Part shown: positions 55,595 to 64,000 of the stretch, one piece after another
Numbering within the stretch: the stretch's first letter is position 1
How the letters are laid out: every line of letters begins with the position of its first letter
Assembly (NCBI GenBank): GCA_016783565.1
Contig: JADHWI010000006.1
Span: 1 to 64,000, forward strand
Source of the DNA: Kiritimatiellia bacterium
GTDB lineage: Bacteria > Verrucomicrobiota > Kiritimatiellia > UBA8416 > JADHWI01
Direction of reading: 5' to 3'
Length of the DNA stretch: 64,000 nucleotides
Position numbers and translations under genes: made by a program
The notes under the pieces: model-generated
The model's input: the letters and a program-made list of their open reading frames with translations, nothing else
Database searches by the model: none
What the model was told of the DNA's origin: nothing

Positions 55595-55819
55595 TTAGAA
55601 ACCGTCGCCACCCCTGTTGAACCCCGGTATAGCAACGCCGCCCTCCCAGGTTTGCTGGGTATTCCACGGCAGATCAGAATCTTCATCCGTGGTTGAGCAT
55701 CCGGAACTCAACAACACAATCCCGGTCAAAAGCAGACCCGCTGCCATAACGGAAACGAGTCGCACAAAATCACAAAGACAAAAACGTACAGATCGCATAC
55801 TGCCAAACCGCTTCCTCAT
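55595..55819 (-). CDS. Small lipoprotein, PVC type
   Basis: 74 residues from an ATG that overlaps the preceding stop as TGATG, implying coupled translation. A basic N terminus (RKRFGSMRSVRF) and hydrophobic stretch lead to a lipobox (IVLLSSGC). The short mature peptide reads DLPWNTQQTWEG followed by a Gly/Asn/Pro-rich end. Similar DLPWN-W-E peptides appear in PVC genomes as tiny lipoproteins, to my knowledge without assigned function. The tail is too short for a fold and may be a binding tag for the upstream coiled-coil partner. Confidence 0.6.
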   Translation of the reverse strand: MRKRFGSMRSVRFCLCDFVRLVSVMAAGLLLTGIVLLSSGCSTTDEDSDLPWNTQQTWEGGVAIPGFNRGGDGF

Positions 55820-56940
55820 CAATGGAAGACAACATCTCCAATCTTCAGCGGCATTTGCTGCCATGCCACAAGAATGTCCGCCACGGCCAGCCCTTCATCC
55901 AGTTTCACCTGCGTGATCTTCAGTTTCGTCACGAAATCACCGGAATCGGCGCGACGCGCCACCAGCTCAATGTGCGGCAATGCGCGTGTGGGATCCTCGC
56001 CCCAAATCTCGTTAATGAAAGCAGGAGTCACTTTAATAATCGCAAAGTTCCACTCCTTATTGACGGCGATGATTTTACCCTTGTCACCTGGCTCAATGAA
56101 AGCAATAGCACTGGTATCCACAGCGACCCCACTGCTCGATCCCTTATCAAGCATGCGGGTTTTCATATCATTGATAATCTGTTCAAGACGCTTGATCGCG
56201 GTTTTTTGCTCAGCAATCTCTTTGTCACGAAGCTGAATCTGGCGATCACGTTCAGCCACATCATCGCGCAAAGCCTGCTTTTCTTCTTTAAGCAATGCGA
56301 TATCACTACGCAAGCCTTCAATTTGCTGCTCCAAGCCCATAATCTGCTGACTTAACTGCGTAATTTGCTGTAGTTTCTGGCGCAGCTCGCCCTTCTGGCT
56401 ATTGAGATCACGAATCGTGGCAATCAATTCTTCGCGTAGAACACGCAATTGCTCGCGTGTCTCGTTCAACAAATTATACTGATCTTCAGCCTTGAGCAAC
56501 GCATCCTCAAGAACGGCATGCATGGTCCTTTCACCTTTGATAATCTTCTGACCATACTGATCTTTCTTCGGCTTCTGGGTAATTGGATCGAGCTGAAAAT
56601 ACTGCATCATCTCGCGACGCTTCTTGTTCAGATCCAGAAGATCCTGCTCCGTATCTTCCAGGTGATATTTGTAGGTATCCCAGAAATTCGCGGTCTCCGG
56701 ATCTTCTACCACCTGATCCGTTACAGCGCCTACATCACGTTCAGGATCGCCCGGAAGCTCTTCCAGGGCTTCGGCCTTTTCGGTCTCCAGAGTGCTACCC
56801 AGTTTAATGACGTATTCCTCAAGCAACTGAGTGCGCCCTTTCAGCAATTCACGTTTATTAAAGAGCAAAACACCCAAAACCAGTGCGCCAATACTCAAAA
56901 GAAGAAGGAGGATTGTAAAGACTCTAAGCGTTTTACCCAT
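55819..56940 (-). CDS. Membrane-anchored coiled-coil protein, unknown
   Basis: 373 residues. An N-terminal membrane anchor (about 8-28) is followed by an acidic stretch and a long coiled coil (about 95-270, with LRQKLQQITQLSQQIMGLEQQIEGLRSDIALLKEE). A C-terminal ~105-residue beta-rich domain begins IEPGDKGKIIAVNKEWNFAIIKVT and ends PLKIGDVVFH. The topology recalls wall- or division-related scaffold proteins, but no family is recognised. A hairpin (56984-57005) lies in its leader. It is divergent from the TPR/ExbBD cluster and coupled to a small lipoprotein. Confidence 0.65.
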   Translation of the reverse strand: MGKTLRVFTILLLLLSIGALVLGVLLFNKRELLKGRTQLLEEYVIKLGSTLETEKAEALEELPGDPERDVGAVTDQVVEDPETANFWDTYKYHLEDTEQDLLDLNKKRREMMQYFQLDPITQKPKKDQYGQKIIKGERTMHAVLEDALLKAEDQYNLLNETREQLRVLREELIATIRDLNSQKGELRQKLQQITQLSQQIMGLEQQIEGLRSDIALLKEEKQALRDDVAERDRQIQLRDKEIAEQKTAIKRLEQIINDMKTRMLDKGSSSGVAVDTSAIAFIEPGDKGKIIAVNKEWNFAIIKVTPAFINEIWGEDPTRALPHIELVARRADSGDFVTKLKITQVKLDEGLAVADILVAWQQMPLKIGDVVFH

Positions 56941-57330: not shown

Positions 57331-60300
57331 ATGAAAAAACTCTCTACCATGACCCTGTTAAGCAGAACTTACTTCATCCTTATTCTTACCCTCGCGGCTT
57401 CCATCACTGGATCAACCGCTTCGGGACAAACCGCGCGACAGCGACTCATTGAAGAGGAATTACGCTACATCAGCGGACTTCAGGAATGGGGGCTGATACA
57501 AGTCGCCAACGAGGTAATGGCCGCCGCCGAAGCACGATACCCGGAAATCAAGCCGCAGATTAAGGTGGCCAAACTCAAGGGTTTGCTGGCTGTGGGTGAC
57601 TTCGAGCAGGTCAGGCAGATTATTTCAAAAGAGCCCAATCAGGCCAGCCAAGACGTGTGGGCCATGAAACTGGCTCTCGCCGACGGCTTTTATGCTTGGG
57701 GAAAATACGCGGAAGCACAAGGTATCTACGAAGCATTCTTCAAACAATATGCCGGACAGCCCCCGGCAGCAATTCAAGGATTTTACCGGGATTCCGCTTA
57801 CAAGTATGCGCAGATGCTGATCCTCATGGGAAATGAAGATAAAGCCCTGGATGCCTACCGGCGCGTTCTGAAGGTCAAAAACGAGCGCTATATCGAGCGA
57901 CAAGTCATGTCGGAGCTGGCGGAACTCCTTATTAAAGTGGGCGAAAAGAACTCCACAAAAAAAGGCGCCTACTTTAAAGAGGCCGAAAAGTTGGCCAACA
58001 AGATTCTCTGGGTGCAGGACCTCTGGTTCGGTAAAGCCATCGTGTACTTAGCTCACATTGAGATGGCCAGGGGCAATATTCAGAAAGCGACCAAACTAGT
58101 CGACGATTACAAGGAAGACCTGAAAGCTATTCACGACACATTGGTCGAACAATCCAAAGGCGGGTATGAAGATTTGACGCGCCTCAGCCCCATCGCAGAG
58201 TGTCGCTATCTCCTGGGGTCCATCATGCTGGATAAGGCCGAAGCGCTGATCAAGGTGAACAAAATGGGCAACAAACCCGCCATCGTCGAACTGCTCGCAG
58301 GTAAAGCCACAGGAAAAATGGACAAACGAGGCAACCCGGGGCGTTCGGCCGGAGCCCTACAGCACTTCCTCAATGTTTTCATCCGTTTTCCCACCACACA
58401 ATGGGCCGCTGACGCAGGCATGAAAGCGCGCAAGGTCGAAGATATCCTGATAAGAGAATACGAAGCCACAATCAATACATCCGTAAGCGAAGAACAGCTC
58501 GACAGGGTCCGAAGCAGCGCGTTCCAGCAAGCGCGCTCACTGTTCAATCAACAGCAGTTTGAGAAAGCAGTTGAGAGCTACATTGTTACACTCTCACTCT
58601 TCCCAGAAGGTGAAGCCTCTATTTCCGCGATTGCGGAACTCTGTCAGGCATATCTCGAATTGGGAGAAGAAACACATGCCGACATGGTGGTCTCCTACCT
58701 TGCAGAACGCTTCAGCATGCAGGAGAAACTGATGCCTGCCGCCGGTGACCGTGTGGTGAAGCTGGCCATGTACTGCGGAGACCGCAAGATGCCGGACCGG
58801 CGCGATGCGATCTATGACATGTTTTTTGAAAATTACAGAAAACATCCCCGCACCTCTGGATTAATCTATATGTTCGGCGAAGAACGCTTTGGTCAGGAAG
58901 CTTACGACGCAGCGCTAACCTATTTCACGCAAATCGAAGAAAAATACCCGAACGCCCCCACCTACTTCAACGCCATGAGTCGCAAAGCCTACTGCTACTC
59001 CAACATGAAAGACTTTACTAATGAGGTAAAACAGCTCACCAAGCTCACAGAAGAGCTGGACAAGAAAGAGCGCCCTGGGCACGCGTATATCAGCGCAAAC
59101 TTCCGTTTGGCCTACGCGTACAAACAACTCGACAAAAAATATCTTTCAGCAGCTTACAACCGGTATTCCAAACTCATAAAGACCATCTCGTCCAAGGATC
59201 CACGATACGCGAATTCCGGTGAGGAACGAGAAGCGAATCAAAAGGTCCTCGAAGGCGCAATGTTCTACAGCGCCATTTGCCTCGCGCAGCTCACACCCTC
59301 CGAAGATAAACTGCCGATCTACCGCAAAAAGGCCATCTCCACCCTGGAGCAACTAATCGAGACGTTCCCGAAATCACAGTTTGCACCTTCAGCACTCAAC
59401 CAGATCGGCACATTGTATGTATTGCTGGAAGAGCCGGAAAAAGCGCGTGAGGCACTCGATAAACTGCGCAAAGACTATCCGAAGACCGACGAGGCTAAGA
59501 ACTCCAGATTTCTCCTGGCCAAGAGCCTTCTGGAACTTGGCTACAGACAAAAAGCAGTCAAAATATTTAAAGAGATGTTTGCCGGTGACGGCCAATATGC
59601 TGCAGGACAGATTCTGACTGCCGGACTCGAACTCTTGAAGGCCGGCGAAGCCGAAATTGCGCTGCAGGCCTTTAACCGCGTCCTGAAGTCCGAAAAGAAA
59701 CGTTCCGCCGTGGAACCGGCCATGCTCGGCAAAGGCAATGCCCTGCTCGCCCTTGAGAAACATGCCGAAGCCGCAGAACTTTTCGCCGATCTCCTGGCAA
59801 AGTTCCCTAACAGCGGCTACACGGTAGAAGCCTGTTCGCAACTCAGCCTATCCTATGCAACGCTCGGTGCGTCCGAAGCAGATAAAGATAAGCGCTTCAT
59901 GTACTTTAATGATGCCGTAAAAGCCATGAACCGCGCGAGACAGTTTGAAAAGAATGCTGCAGGACGCGAAGGGCTCAACCTTGGCGTCGCGCGCATCTAC
60001 GCTCAAAAGGCCGTAGCTGAAAGCAAATTCGGCACCCCTGAAACCGAAAAAGAAGCTCGCGGTTTTGCTGTGGCCACCTACCAGATGATGATCACTCTGG
60101 CCGACCCGCGCGATCCGGAAGTACGGAAGCACATCGAAACAGCCTACCACGAATGCTTGCCCCTGCTGCTGGCCATGGAACGCTGGACGGACGCATTTAA
60201 CGATGCAGAACAGTACCTCTCCATGTTTGAGCGCACCGGACGCTACGTTTCAGACGTTCGCGCCTGCCGTACCCGTGCACGCACCAAAATGATGACTGCC

Positions 60301-60429
60301 GGTGCACCAACCACCACACAGGCACCAACACCTGAAACCGAATCGACAAAAACCGCCGTCACGAACACGGCGACGGAAACAACCACTGAAGCGAAAACCA
60401 ACGCCGCAGCGAATCAACCCTCTGAGTAA
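57331..60429 (+). CDS. Large exported TPR protein
   Basis: 1032 residues with a signal peptide (LSRTYFILILTLAASITGSTASGQ). The mature protein is almost entirely tetratricopeptide-like helix pairs; clear units include DKALDAYRRVLKVKNERY, FNQQQFEKAVESYIVTLSLFPEGE, LNQIGTLYVLLEEPEKAREALDKLRKDYPKTDEAKNS and HAEAAELFADLLAKFPNSGYTVEA. The last ~40 residues are Thr/Ala/Pro/Glu-rich and disordered. It resembles an enlarged CpoB/YbgF or BamD-like periplasmic scaffold. It leads a co-directional run with a second TPR protein, ExbB, two ExbDs and the TonB-like/toroid protein, suggesting it organises that complex. Confidence 0.8.
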   Translation: MKKLSTMTLLSRTYFILILTLAASITGSTASGQTARQRLIEEELRYISGLQEWGLIQVANEVMAAAEARYPEIKPQIKVAKLKGLLAVGDFEQVRQIISKEPNQASQDVWAMKLALADGFYAWGKYAEAQGIYEAFFKQYAGQPPAAIQGFYRDSAYKYAQMLILMGNEDKALDAYRRVLKVKNERYIERQVMSELAELLIKVGEKNSTKKGAYFKEAEKLANKILWVQDLWFGKAIVYLAHIEMARGNIQKATKLVDDYKEDLKAIHDTLVEQSKGGYEDLTRLSPIAECRYLLGSIMLDKAEALIKVNKMGNKPAIVELLAGKATGKMDKRGNPGRSAGALQHFLNVFIRFPTTQWAADAGMKARKVEDILIREYEATINTSVSEEQLDRVRSSAFQQARSLFNQQQFEKAVESYIVTLSLFPEGEASISAIAELCQAYLELGEETHADMVVSYLAERFSMQEKLMPAAGDRVVKLAMYCGDRKMPDRRDAIYDMFFENYRKHPRTSGLIYMFGEERFGQEAYDAALTYFTQIEEKYPNAPTYFNAMSRKAYCYSNMKDFTNEVKQLTKLTEELDKKERPGHAYISANFRLAYAYKQLDKKYLSAAYNRYSKLIKTISSKDPRYANSGEEREANQKVLEGAMFYSAICLAQLTPSEDKLPIYRKKAISTLEQLIETFPKSQFAPSALNQIGTLYVLLEEPEKAREALDKLRKDYPKTDEAKNSRFLLAKSLLELGYRQKAVKIFKEMFAGDGQYAAGQILTAGLELLKAGEAEIALQAFNRVLKSEKKRSAVEPAMLGKGNALLALEKHAEAAELFADLLAKFPNSGYTVEACSQLSLSYATLGASEADKDKRFMYFNDAVKAMNRARQFEKNAAGREGLNLGVARIYAQKAVAESKFGTPETEKEARGFAVATYQMMITLADPRDPEVRKHIETAYHECLPLLLAMERWTDAFNDAEQYLSMFERTGRYVSDVRACRTRARTKMMTAGAPTTTQAPTPETESTKTAVTNTATETTTEAKTNAAANQPSE

Positions 60430-60445
60430 AGGAGAAACACCTACC

Positions 60446-61267
60446 ATGAAAAGAAATACTATGAAAAAACACCGCAGTCTCATTGCCGCCCTTGTCGTCC
60501 TCCTCGTGGGTGCAATCAGCGCCAGTGCAGCCGTAAAAGGAGTCATCTACAAACGGGATGGCACCAAATTCGAAGGAACGATTCAATGGTTCGGCGCCAC
60601 ACAGGAATACTCAGTTACCCGTGGTGGCGATGGAATCACCCTCAAGATTTCCTCTGCAGAGGTCGCAAAAGTGGTAGTCCCAAAACCTTCCGGGTTCGAT
60701 GCGGCACAAAAAGCCGTTCGCGGCGGCAGCTATGCGGGCGCCATTCGACCCCTGGAACAAATCGTTAAGAATTACGAGAGACTGGGAGACTGGGACATAA
60801 AGGCCGCAAGCCTGCTCGCCACAGCCTACCTGGGCATGAATCAGTACCCGCAGGCTAAAACCATGTGCGAAAAGATCATTCGGGTAAATCCGGACGCCGC
60901 CCGGTCTGGAGACCTTGCCCGTGTCTACTGGGATGTTCTTGAGAAAATGAAGCTTGAAGCCAAGCTGAAATCCGTACTCACCGACGCAATAAAATCAGGC
61001 GGACGAGAAGTTGCTGCCGTGGCCCAAATGAAACGCGCGGATATCGAATTGTCTAAAGGAAACGTCAAAAAGGCCCTCGTGGAGGGCTATCTCCGCACTG
61101 CAATCCTATTTAGAGACGTCAAAGATATCCAGCCAGAGGCGCTGCTCAAGTCGGCAAAGTGCTTCCAGCAGATTGGACGTCAGTCCGAAGCGGAAAAGAT
61201 GCGCAAACGGCTATTGGAATACTTTCCACAGAGTCCTGAAGCAAAACAAGTTCGAAGAGGAGCTTAA
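60446..61267 (+). CDS. Exported TPR-like protein
   Basis: 273 residues from the ATG at 60446, preceded by AAAGGAG. The signal peptide ends ISASAA. A small beta module (VIYKRDGTKFEGTIQWFGATQEYSVTR and ILKISSAEVAKVVV) comes first, then four or so TPR-like helix pairs (AAQKAVRGGSYAGAIRPLEQIVKNYERLGDWDIKAASLLATAYLGM). It starts 16 bases after the larger TPR gene, so the two are co-transcribed. The N-terminal beta module resembles those of other PVC exported proteins. Likely a periplasmic accessory of the ExbB/ExbD complex; function inferred from context. Confidence 0.7.
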   Translation: MKRNTMKKHRSLIAALVVLLVGAISASAAVKGVIYKRDGTKFEGTIQWFGATQEYSVTRGGDGITLKISSAEVAKVVVPKPSGFDAAQKAVRGGSYAGAIRPLEQIVKNYERLGDWDIKAASLLATAYLGMNQYPQAKTMCEKIIRVNPDAARSGDLARVYWDVLEKMKLEAKLKSVLTDAIKSGGREVAAVAQMKRADIELSKGNVKKALVEGYLRTAILFRDVKDIQPEALLKSAKCFQQIGRQSEAEKMRKRLLEYFPQSPEAKQVRRGA

Positions 61268-61403
61268 TGTTTTCATACCTCAACACACATAAAACAGAAA
61301 TTCCCTTGTATTAGGTTGAGGGGGTATGCTAGAAACTCCGCTTTCAAATGTAAATCCGGGGCCTAGCGTTTTACCGGGTGGTCAACGAAAGGAATAACGA
61401 TCC

Positions 61404-62198
61404 ATGAAGAAAATGATGCTCTTCGCCATGATATTGTCTCTCGCTTGTGTCGCAATCCCCTCCATGTCATATGCGCAGGAAGAGGCTGCCGATGCTGCCC
61501 CTGCAGGCACCTTCGAGAGAGCTGAAGCATCAGACGATGACGGCGGGTCCTCATCTGCCGGATCCGGTGGATTCTTCTCTGTGGTATTCAAGTCCGGGGC
61601 GCTTGGCATCCTCCTGTGGTTGTCCATCTTCGTCGCAGCCGGATTCGCCGTATATTTTGTTGTAGACTGCTTTATTACGGTTCGAGTCACCCGAGTGATG
61701 CCGGACTCACTCATCGATAACGTCACCGAATCCATGCTGGAAGGAGACGTACTCAAAGCCCTTGAGAATTGCGAGAATGAGCCCAGCCCACTGGCCAACA
61801 TCCTTTCCGCCGGCTTCAGCCATGTGGAAGAAGGCTACGAAGTCATTCAGGAAGCCATATCCACCGCAGCAGATCTTGAAACCGAACGCATCATGCAAAA
61901 ACTCACCTGGATGTCCGTAGTGGGAAATATTGCACCAATGCTCGGACTGCTCGGTACGGTTCAGGGAATGATCAGGGCCTTTGCCAACCTGGCCGGCGGC
62001 GCACCGGACCTGGGCATCCTTGCCTTGAATATTTCACAGGCTTTGTACACCACTGCCGGTGGTCTAACCATCGCAGTGCCTTGCGTAGCGTTCTACTACA
62101 CGTTTCGCAACAGTGCGAACACACTGATTCTCCGCATGGAAGCCATGACTCTTGAGTTGATCAAGGATCTGCGAAATGTAGAAGTTGTTGCTGAATAG
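61404..62198 (+). CDS. ExbB/TolQ/MotA-family proton channel subunit
   Basis: 264 residues. Unusual for ExbB, it begins with a cleavable signal peptide (MMLFAMILSLACVAIPSMSYAQ) and a ~35-residue acidic/Ser/Gly periplasmic segment before the first core membrane helix (LGILLWLSIFVAAGFAVYFVVDCF). The two C-terminal helices show the family pattern (NIAPMLGLLGTVQGMIRAF and ISQALYTTAGGLTIAVPCVAFYYTF). With ExbD it uses the proton gradient to drive a TonB-like partner. An AAAGGA Shine-Dalgarno precedes the ATG. Confidence 0.9.
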   Translation: MKKMMLFAMILSLACVAIPSMSYAQEEAADAAPAGTFERAEASDDDGGSSSAGSGGFFSVVFKSGALGILLWLSIFVAAGFAVYFVVDCFITVRVTRVMPDSLIDNVTESMLEGDVLKALENCENEPSPLANILSAGFSHVEEGYEVIQEAISTAADLETERIMQKLTWMSVVGNIAPMLGLLGTVQGMIRAFANLAGGAPDLGILALNISQALYTTAGGLTIAVPCVAFYYTFRNSANTLILRMEAMTLELIKDLRNVEVVAE

Positions 62199-62235
62199 CC
62201 ACCCGCGTGCAATGCACGCTAAAGGATAGATCAGT

Positions 62236-62685
62236 ATGGCATTTGGAAAGAGAAATTCGCATGGCCAGGGCTGCGAGATCGACATGACCCCCATGATCGA
62301 TGTCGTCTTCCAGCTCATCATCTTCTTCATCGTCACGATTAACCTCGAGCAGAACTACAACGAGGATATTCATCTCGAAGATGCACCGCATGCGCGCATT
62401 ATTAATACACAGGACGAGGATCCTCGCACGCTGATCATTGAGGTCGACAAGCGCGGCTGGATCTCTCTGCATGGTGCAGTGGTGAACAAGTCGCAGCTTG
62501 CACAGATCATACGTCGACGCTTCAATGCCATGGGTGAATACCCCGTTCTCATTCGAGGCGACTACCGTACAAAACATCGCGACATCCGGGGCGTCATGGA
62601 TACCTGCTCAGGCGCCGGGCTCTGGAAAATTACTTTTGCGGCGATCAAAGAACACAAGGTCGAGAACGGACGGAGGCGAGGATGA
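62236..62685 (+). CDS. ExbD/TolR family protein (copy 1)
   Basis: 149 residues. A short cytoplasmic N terminus leads to the single membrane helix DMTPMIDVVFQLIIFFIVTI, with the proton-carrying Asp at position 22. A periplasmic ExbD domain follows (TLIIEVDKRGWISLHGAVVNKSQLAQIIRRRF and PVLIRGDYRTKHRDIRGVMDTCSGAGLWKITFA). It overlaps the second exbD by ATGA. Proton-driven motors are usually ExbB5-ExbD2, so two different ExbDs may form a heterodimer. Confidence 0.9.
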   Translation: MAFGKRNSHGQGCEIDMTPMIDVVFQLIIFFIVTINLEQNYNEDIHLEDAPHARIINTQDEDPRTLIIEVDKRGWISLHGAVVNKSQLAQIIRRRFNAMGEYPVLIRGDYRTKHRDIRGVMDTCSGAGLWKITFAAIKEHKVENGRRRG

Positions 62686-63086
62686 GAGTATCCAAGTCCA
62701 GAAACAAGGGCGAAGCCGCCAAACTGGAAATGACGCCCATGATCGACGTGGTGTTTCAGCTCCTGATCTTTTTCCTCGTCACGATGAAGCAGGAAGATAT
62801 TCTGTCGCAGCTCGAAGTGTCACGCCCTGCTCCAGAGTCCACCCCTCCCCCAGCCCAGGTAGACGAACTCCTGACGATCACCGTCTACGAGAAAGGCTAT
62901 GTGCTCAAGGGACGTAACGTATCACTGCAACATCTGGACAGCCAACTCTCACGTCTCGCCGGATTCAGTACAAAGATATCGGTTGTGATCAAGTGTACCG
63001 CCGGCTCCCCGCATTCCAATCTGGTCAAATTGCTCGATATCTGTTCCAAATCGGGACTCACGAACTTGTCTGTTTTCAGTATGTAG
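62682..63086 (+). CDS. ExbD/TolR family protein (copy 2)
   Basis: 134 residues with the same layout and the membrane Asp again at position 22 (EMTPMIDVVFQLLIFFLVTM). The periplasmic domain (LTITVYEKGYVLKGRNVSLQHLDSQLSRLAG) has diverged from copy 1 and follows a Pro-rich linker. It begins within the stop codon of copy 1 (ATGA), so the two are made together. It is followed, after 218 bases without a recognised gene, by the TonB-like/toroid gene. Confidence 0.9.
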   Translation: MRVSKSRNKGEAAKLEMTPMIDVVFQLLIFFLVTMKQEDILSQLEVSRPAPESTPPPAQVDELLTITVYEKGYVLKGRNVSLQHLDSQLSRLAGFSTKISVVIKCTAGSPHSNLVKLLDICSKSGLTNLSVFSM

Positions 63087-63304
63087 CGTTGGTTTTTCCT
63101 GTCATCATTCCCATGCGGGGAACAGGGGTGTCCGAAAACGCACTGCTTCGCGAGCCGATTTGAACAGGACAGCAAATAGCTGAATCCGAAACATAACTGC
63201 ATTTTTATTATCTTATCCTCTAAGATTTAACGCCCAAGAGTCGTTATACGTGTGGAAAGCAGCGAAACAGGTCTGTTCACAGGCCAAAACACGGGAAATA
63301 TGCG

Positions 63305-64000
63305 ATGAGTGAAGAAATTCTGGAAGAAGTAGAGTTTGCAGAAGAAATGCGGGAACTTGATCCCGAGCATGCCCTCCTGGACTTGTTTGAGCATATCAGC
63401 TTTAAGGAAAAGATTGCCCGCATTAAATTCGGCTTGAAGCAACCAGTTGAAACAGGTGCCTACAAATGGGCAAGACTTGAAATGAAACGTTTCCTGTCAC
63501 CCATCGCCGGAGTCGTGGTACCGACAGTAGCACTATTGCTTCTCGTGGCATTTGCCGCGATGACACCCGCGCCTGAGCGAAAAGTCGAAGTGCAGATCAT
63601 TGATCCCGAAGAAACTCCAGAGCTCGAAGAGATCGAAGAAATCATCGAGCCGCCACCCGAGATCCCTGATCCCGTAGACGTGGATTTCTCTCAGGACCCG
63701 GTCATGAACGATGTGGCCACACCGGCCCCACCGACAGATTTTGCTCCTCAGCCTGCGGAATTCGATTCCGTCGCACTTACGAAAAGCCCCGTCATTCTAC
63801 GCGGCATCTATGGCAGCCGCAACCCCGGCAGCCGCGGCAGTGCCCTGGCGCGCCATGGCGGTAGCGGCGCTGGCGAAGCCGCCGTGCTTCGCGCTCTACG
63901 CTGGCTCAAAAAGAACCAACTAGCGAACGGCGCCTGGAAGGGCACCGAGCCCGCAATGGCAGCCCTGGCTATTCTTACTTACATGGCCCATGGCGACACC
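63305..64000 (+). CDS. TonB-like anchor with squalene-cyclase-type domain (partial)
   Basis: The first 232 residues; the gene runs off the window. Residues 1-62 are cytoplasmic and acidic at the start. A single membrane helix is at about 64-86 (LSPIAGVVVPTVALLLLVAFAAM). A TonB/TolA-like Glu/Pro linker (about 98-135, with EEIEEIIEPPPEIPDPVD) follows. A Gly/Arg/Ser patch (168-190) then leads to the opening repeats of a prenyltransferase/squalene-cyclase alpha/alpha toroid (EAAVLRALRWLKKNQLANGAW and PAMAALAILTYMAHG). Position after exbB-exbD-exbD says it is the energised partner, with a toroid where TonB has its receptor-binding domain. Confidence 0.8.
   Translation, partial: MSEEILEEVEFAEEMRELDPEHALLDLFEHISFKEKIARIKFGLKQPVETGAYKWARLEMKRFLSPIAGVVVPTVALLLLVAFAAMTPAPERKVEVQIIDPEETPELEEIEEIIEPPPEIPDPVDVDFSQDPVMNDVATPAPPTDFAPQPAEFDSVALTKSPVILRGIYGSRNPGSRGSALARHGGSGAGEAAVLRALRWLKKNQLANGAWKGTEPAMAALAILTYMAHGDT

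Follow-up and report, generated by a model that had tools for sequence, protein, structure and literature searches.

A toroid-headed putative force transducer in a MUL1-like ExbB/ExbD gene cassette of a Kiritimatiellia bacterium

The DNA analysed here, hereafter the window, comprises the first 64,000 nucleotides (forward strand) of contig JADHWI010000006.1 from a Kiritimatiellia bacterium (GenBank assembly GCA_016783565.1). The source genome (G000) amounts to 2.4 Mb in 77 contigs and is 85% complete; the contig carrying the window is designated C16. The end of the window raises the question of why the genes of a TonB-like motor run into a gene for a protein with a squalene-cyclase-type fold, and what such an assembly would do. 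Six open reading frames (ORFs), all on the + strand, encode a large tetratricopeptide repeat (TPR) protein, a small TPR protein, ExbB, ExbD, a second ExbD and the toroid protein, whose gene is cut by the window end. This run had been proposed in an original prediction made from the sequence; all six ORFs are present, and Pfam and NCBIfam models confirm the TPR, MotA_ExbB and both ExbD assignments together with a weak toroid match. The answer put forward below, to which we give about an even chance, is that the cassette specifies a MUL1-type machine that spans the envelope and is driven by protons, with a toroid-headed transducer, and that is probably devoted to the uptake of polymers (glycans). 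In Akkermansia, the MUL genes are required if mucin products are to accumulate internally (PMC12418764), and a likeness of MUL1 to the Sus system has been noted (PMC13174399).

The toroid gene occupies 63305..64000 (+) in the window, where the first 232 of its 536 amino acids are encoded, and was completed from the contig sequence up to base 64915 of C16, the protein ending in ...DNVEVSIQI. About 60 N-terminal cytoplasmic residues precede a single transmembrane helix (residues 64-87; 63494..63565, +), which was assigned from hydropathy, from the alignment and from the corresponding AlphaFold helix in relative L081. A motor-box-like beta segment, KVEVQIID (63581..63604, +), lies right after the span and was recognised from the family consensus VEVxxxEPE and the motor-box definition given in PMC12204202. 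It is followed by a Glu/Pro-rich linker (63605..63799, +), predicted to be disordered from its sequence and from the relative, whose residues ~104-167 mostly have a predicted local distance difference test (pLDDT) value <50. The alpha/alpha toroid begins at about residue 171 (63815..64000, +, extending past the window) and is supported by a profile match, the model and a fold search. The anticipated layout of a single-span protein whose Glu/Pro linker enters a toroid is thus retained in the completed gene. The complete 536-residue protein gives no match to the tonB_Cterm model, and the same search returned 23.5 bits (weak) for a TolA-like protein encoded elsewhere in the genome; as predicted, a toroid stands in place of the TonB C-terminal domain.

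Taken alone, the window's protein produces weak Pfam matches to squalene-cyclase/prenyltransferase toroids. A profile of 46 toroid relatives matches squalene-hopene cyclase with an E-value of 1.5e-15 by way of QW-type repeats, and SQHop_cyclase_C is matched singly by 37 of the 46. The AlphaFold2 model of L081, which is 63% identical to the window's protein, has a mean pLDDT of 81; values in the toroid are mostly >90, whereas the linker and the C-terminal tail are disordered. It displays the alternating inner and outer helices of an alpha/alpha toroid. Foldseek searches using this model returned squalene-hopene cyclases, GH76 mannanases, AprG and complement C3d with a probability of 1.00 and a target TM (template modelling) score of ~0.6. 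Since all of these are matched alike, the fold is that of a general alpha/alpha toroid. The catalytic Asp residues of real cyclases, a check advised in the original prediction, were looked for in the toroids of 126 members: the motif D[VILA]DD[TS] occurs in none, DCTAE in none, and a looser pattern in 3, where it is unconserved. The thioester and LanC CHG motifs are likewise absent from the toroid members, and the conserved toroid columns contain no pair of neighbouring Asp residues of the GH76 kind. Neither of the two findings that the original prediction named as refuting it, a canonical TonB C-terminal domain further along the gene or intact cyclase active-site motifs, was encountered. In contrast to squalene-hopene cyclases and other toroids, the family displays no conserved catalytic motif and is both membrane-tethered and motor-linked. 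The inner helices are better conserved (3.08 bits) than the outer ones (2.40 bits), the conserved inner residues being rich in Tyr, Trp and Gln with single Glu, His and Lys; these would suit a binding pocket. Weak matches to pectate lyase or GH88 models are given by some family members. One relative (alignment A3) matches the anti-sigma zinc finger model zf-HC2; the matching segment presumably lies in the cytoplasmic portion.

Docking of TonB and TolA on their motors relies on an SHLS-type motif in the span, after which comes the motor-box strand (PMC12204202). S-x-x-x-H is present in the span of 44 of the 71 toroid proteins that are motor-linked, as compared to a mean of 1.8 and a maximum of 7 in shuffled sequences. 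The consensus VEVxxxEPE and the subsequent Glu/Pro-rich stretch provide the family with a motor-box strand and a disordered linker, and the C-terminus ends in an acidic then alternating-hydrophobic, strand-like tail in 58 of the 71 motor-linked members versus 11 of the 40 unlinked ones. The sixth slot of the cassette is also occupied by other heads: a PA14-like head with the span SIAVH in one genome (Pfam E 0.018, below the cut-off) and a vWA-like head with the span TVIVH in another (judged from sequence, with no Pfam match). A slot that keeps its span and linker while exchanging heads fits what one would look for in a transducer whose heads can be swapped. The system shares with TonB-ExbB-ExbD and TolQRA the motor families, an N-in span, S-x-x-x-H in most motor-linked members (the His being absent from the window's own clade), the motor-box strand and a Pro-rich linker, whereas the toroid head is unrelated to the C-terminal domain of TonB or TolA. 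The toroid protein looks built to work like these two, yet its head lacks the TonB C-terminal domain.

The nearest published relative is the vWA force-transducer family of the Planctomycetes-Verrucomicrobia-Chlamydiae (PVC) group (PMC12204202), with which the cassette has the gene set in common, the head being different. Both combine a TPR gene, a TolQ-like gene and a TolR-like pair with a span-linker-head protein that carries an SHLS-type His (in the toroid family, in most motor-linked members) and is devoid of a TonB C-terminal domain. The cassette differs in its head, an alpha/alpha toroid instead of a vWA domain, and in having two TPR genes. Neither a toroid class nor a link to MUL1 is described in PMC12204202, and neither was found in the literature searched, where most subscription papers were not covered.

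The motor is encoded by three genes. The ExbB/TolQ-type subunit (61404..62198, +; PF01618 (MotA_ExbB), E 1.3e-28) belongs to a distinct clade according to the alignment and trees. The first ExbD/TolR-type subunit (62236..62685, +; PF02472, 1.3e-21) has its proton-binding Asp in MTPMIDVVFQL, and the second, a heterologous partner (62682..63086, +; PF02472, 8.1e-22), retains the Asp; the two ExbD genes overlap by 4 bases (62682-62685). As a separate observation, the cassette ExbB ends in a conserved LRNVEVV[EA]E tail (alignment A4, columns 301-316), none being seen in the paralogous ExbBs.

Two TPR genes precede the motor. The large periplasmic TPR protein (57331..60429, +; 1032 aa, with a signal peptide) was assigned from TPR family matches (1e-20) and synteny; it is the first gene, at the same position, in 36 complete cassettes and is comparable to the TPR protein of Akkermansia MUL1. 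It scores 99.9 bits against the YbgF/CpoB model TIGR02795 (cut-off 90.1), and the MUL1 TPR protein passes this model as well. The small periplasmic TPR protein (60446..61267, +) carries a small N-terminal beta domain and was recognised by its TPR match within the ORF 60302-61267. Its start is very likely the ATG at 60446 and not the ORF opening at 60302, because AAAGGAG precedes that ATG. The protein has no match to NF052542, the NCBIfam model of the Mul1B family (cut-off 75 bits), and in a profile-profile comparison its family aligns to Mul1B over 195 columns with a probability of 87%, part of the N-terminal domain being included. Judged from these profiles, it appears to be a distant relative of Mul1B rather than of CpoB. 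The CpoB-like scaffold role first suggested for the TPR proteins is accordingly not supported as stated: the YbgF/CpoB match is generic, and the assignment of the large protein as CpoB was rejected because TIGR02795 is its only match of this kind.

In genome G113, which we take to be Akkermansia muciniphila MucT, the locus L162 (641.8-649.1 kb) contains ExbB, ExbD, ExbD, a TPR protein of 1101 aa and a further protein of 347 aa. The latter reaches 292 bits against NF052542, far above the cut-off of 75, and genes for GH2, MreB, RNase E/G and siroheme decarboxylase are found upstream. Amuc_0539 is a GH2 (PMC11790493), Amuc_0540 is MreB and Amuc_0546 has been called a biopolymer transporter (PMC11480725). 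L162 is identified as MUL1 on the strength of the Mul1B match and because the GH2 and MreB neighbours are those expected for Amuc_0539 and Amuc_0540. The MUL1 ExbB nests inside the cassette ExbB clade with bootstrap values of 98 and 90. The Mul1B model further gives sub-threshold matches in 18 other genomes, 13 of which lie directly beside a motor-profile ExbB (coordinates compared by eye). MUL1 (ExbB, ExbD, ExbD, mul1A, mul1B) is therefore like the cassette in its five motor and scaffold gene types, its ExbB clade and, as far as the profiles suggest, a Mul1B-related small TPR protein. It is unlike it in gene order and in having no transducer gene in the locus, toroids being unlinked in some Akkermansia. 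In G113, toroid genes stand in tandem at ~1.3447-1.3478 Mb. The original prediction knew of no function for this gene set; the grouping of its motor with that of MUL1 in the ExbB tree improves on this, the function itself being inferred. What appears to be new here is the placement of the MUL1 ExbB within the cassette motor clade and the distant relationship of the small TPR protein to Mul1B. At another locus of G113 (L163:9430-14954, ~1.49 Mb), an ExbB-ExbD-TPR set has an ExbB that groups with vWA-type loci; the next ORF, of 601 aa, was not identified as vWA.

The recurrence foreseen for PVC genomes was borne out for the verrucomicrobial part of that group. Among the 195 genomes sampled from the phylum, 86 contain relatives of the toroid protein. 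Because an alignment of 28 distant sequences (A1) offered no sufficiently conserved stretch, genomes were scanned with a closer set (A2); with it, a scan of 84,980 species genomes yielded at least 580 confirmed stretches, the best 80 of which are nearly all labelled Kiritimatiellae, Lentisphaerae, Verrucomicrobia or unclassified. The exact order large TPR, small TPR, ExbB, ExbD, ExbD, toroid is complete in 36 loci, and an ExbB lies within 8 kb of the toroid in 30 of the 46 named loci having at least 7 kb of upstream sequence. The recurrence of the cassette is far beyond chance, since the 36 complete cassettes share one order. By profile search, motor-clade ExbB and toroid occur together in 67 of the 195 phylum genomes, the motor only in 9 and the toroid only in 16 (odds ratio 48, Fisher p 2e-26, uncorrected for relatedness). 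One genome (G187) has a tandem of three toroids and, ~110 kb away, a cassette of the same ExbB clade that lacks a toroid, so that a toroid may be served by a motor in trans. The cassette is usually single copy and is often a chromosomal locus followed by mutL, a neighbour indicating vertical inheritance. The ~600-aa gene downstream of many toroids was considered as a seventh component and rejected, as it is MutL itself and reflects location, not function. In G074 (L188), a cassette beside mutL is devoid of a toroid, as if the slot had lost it.

The proposed machine would operate as follows. ExbB and the two ExbD subunits would form the inner-membrane motor, with the 536-aa protein acting as force transducer and its N-in single span sitting beside them. 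The motor-box strand and the Glu/Pro linker would span the periplasm, allowing the toroid head, in place of a TonB C-terminal domain, to grip, at the outer membrane, a ligand or partner. The scaffold with which the head works would be provided by both periplasmic TPR proteins, the counterparts of Mul1A and Mul1B. The most likely task is to power the entry into the periplasm of large polymers, which are probably glycans; coupling to the motor, pulling on the toroid and the nature of the cargo are all inferred at this stage. A broader version, in which one motor-plus-TPR chassis including MUL1 drives toroid, PA14-like and vWA-like heads that grip a polymer or an outer-membrane gate, the proton-motive force hauling glycans into the periplasm with no TonB-dependent receptor being opened, is offered tentatively and is unlikely as it stands. 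If the proposal is true, the proton-driven force transducers, of which only a few are listed so far, would gain a toroid class, and a gene set that is widespread but unexplained would obtain a testable job, the MUL1 grouping offering its first testable function. The locus of MUL1, which is needed for mucin accumulation, encodes ExbB and ExbD and no transducer; should a toroid or some other swappable head fill that place, one could test directly how mucin uptake is coupled to energy. The matter also bears on how verrucomicrobia bring large polysaccharides into the periplasm.

A number of observations weigh against this interpretation. The docking His of TonB and TolA is replaced by Pro in the window's own clade (Pro73 in the window's protein, 63521-63523), and the Akkermansia toroids also lack the S-x-x-x-H motif. 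In the tree, the branch leading to the MUL1 ExbB is long. Seven Akkermansia-group genomes keep MUL1, the locus without a transducer gene, and lack a toroid altogether; the MUL1 motor can therefore work without a toroid, at least there, and the idea that unlinked Akkermansia toroids are obligatory MUL1 transducers was dropped since it does not hold generally. Nine genomes have a motor match without a toroid match in the profile search; upon inspection one of them (G172) does have a toroid beside the motor, and the locus of another (G044) stops at a contig edge. Finally, a vertically inherited locus beside mutL would also suit a housekeeping role in the envelope.

That role is best expressed as a Tol-Pal-like system, the main rival, in which the motor would pull the toroid against a partner in the outer membrane or cell wall, holding the envelope together as the cell grows and divides, and the large TPR protein would act like CpoB. 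The passing YbgF/CpoB score, the usual single copy, the frequent position beside housekeeping genes such as mutL and the fact that the cassette ExbB scores best against TolQ all speak for it. The source genome, however, holds a TolQRA-like locus apart from the cassette, on contig C17, where the last protein gives a weak match to the TonB/TolA C-terminal model, as well as OmpA-family proteins that could serve as Pal; the YbgF match is given by TPR arrays at large, the one in MUL1 included; and many genomes of the phylum do without the cassette. No OmpA/Pal-type gene adjoins the cassette in the ORFs and flanking contig inspected. Envelope maintenance is thus a possibility on the unlikely side, and polymer uptake is considered likelier.

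The toroid could instead be a membrane-tethered periplasmic enzyme, a glycan lyase, hydrolase or other, that is an operon-mate of the motor and is not pulled. An enzyme would be in line with the fold matches, squalene-hopene cyclase and GH76 mannanase among them, with the concentration of conserved aromatic and polar residues on the inner helices and with the weak pectate lyase or GH88 matches of some members. The absence of any known catalytic motif in conserved form, the motor-docking motif in the span of most motor-linked members and the other heads taking the same slot make this second rival quite improbable. An ordinary TonB-type system, energising TonB-dependent receptors through the toroid, is more improbable by far: the ExbB/ExbD motor, the TonB-like span and linker and one receptor plug domain in the genome agree with it, but the toroid protein has no TonB C-terminal domain with which to bind a TonB box, the plug domain is single despite five ExbB loci in an 85%-complete genome, and a TonB-like protein exists at another locus.

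Beyond the machine proposed above, the source genome holds further loci of related make-up. On contig C1 (L007:314-5440), a second toroid protein of 1708 aa lies beside its own TPR-ExbB-ExbD set; a SALMH span is followed by a Thr/Ala/Ser/Pro-rich linker of more than 1,000 residues and then by the toroid, and analogues of ~1,300 aa are found in relatives. An ExbB-ExbD-TPR-vWA locus with the span SIVLH on contig C39 (L009:7936-13300) resembles the vWA force-transducer family of PMC12204202. Searches of defence-system and phage libraries gave no useful matches. Just upstream of the cassette, a divergent gene (55819..56940, -) encodes a membrane-anchored coiled-coil protein; near relatives conserve this gene next to their toroid genes too, and it is at most a candidate member of the machine. 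A third toroid gene, unlinked to a motor, is located on contig C60 (L064:8500-12735), close to a paralogue of this coiled-coil protein. On the other side of the cassette, a YdjY-domain gene lies directly 3' of the window's toroid gene (L006:7882-9249) and is found nearby in relatives, often in convergent orientation.

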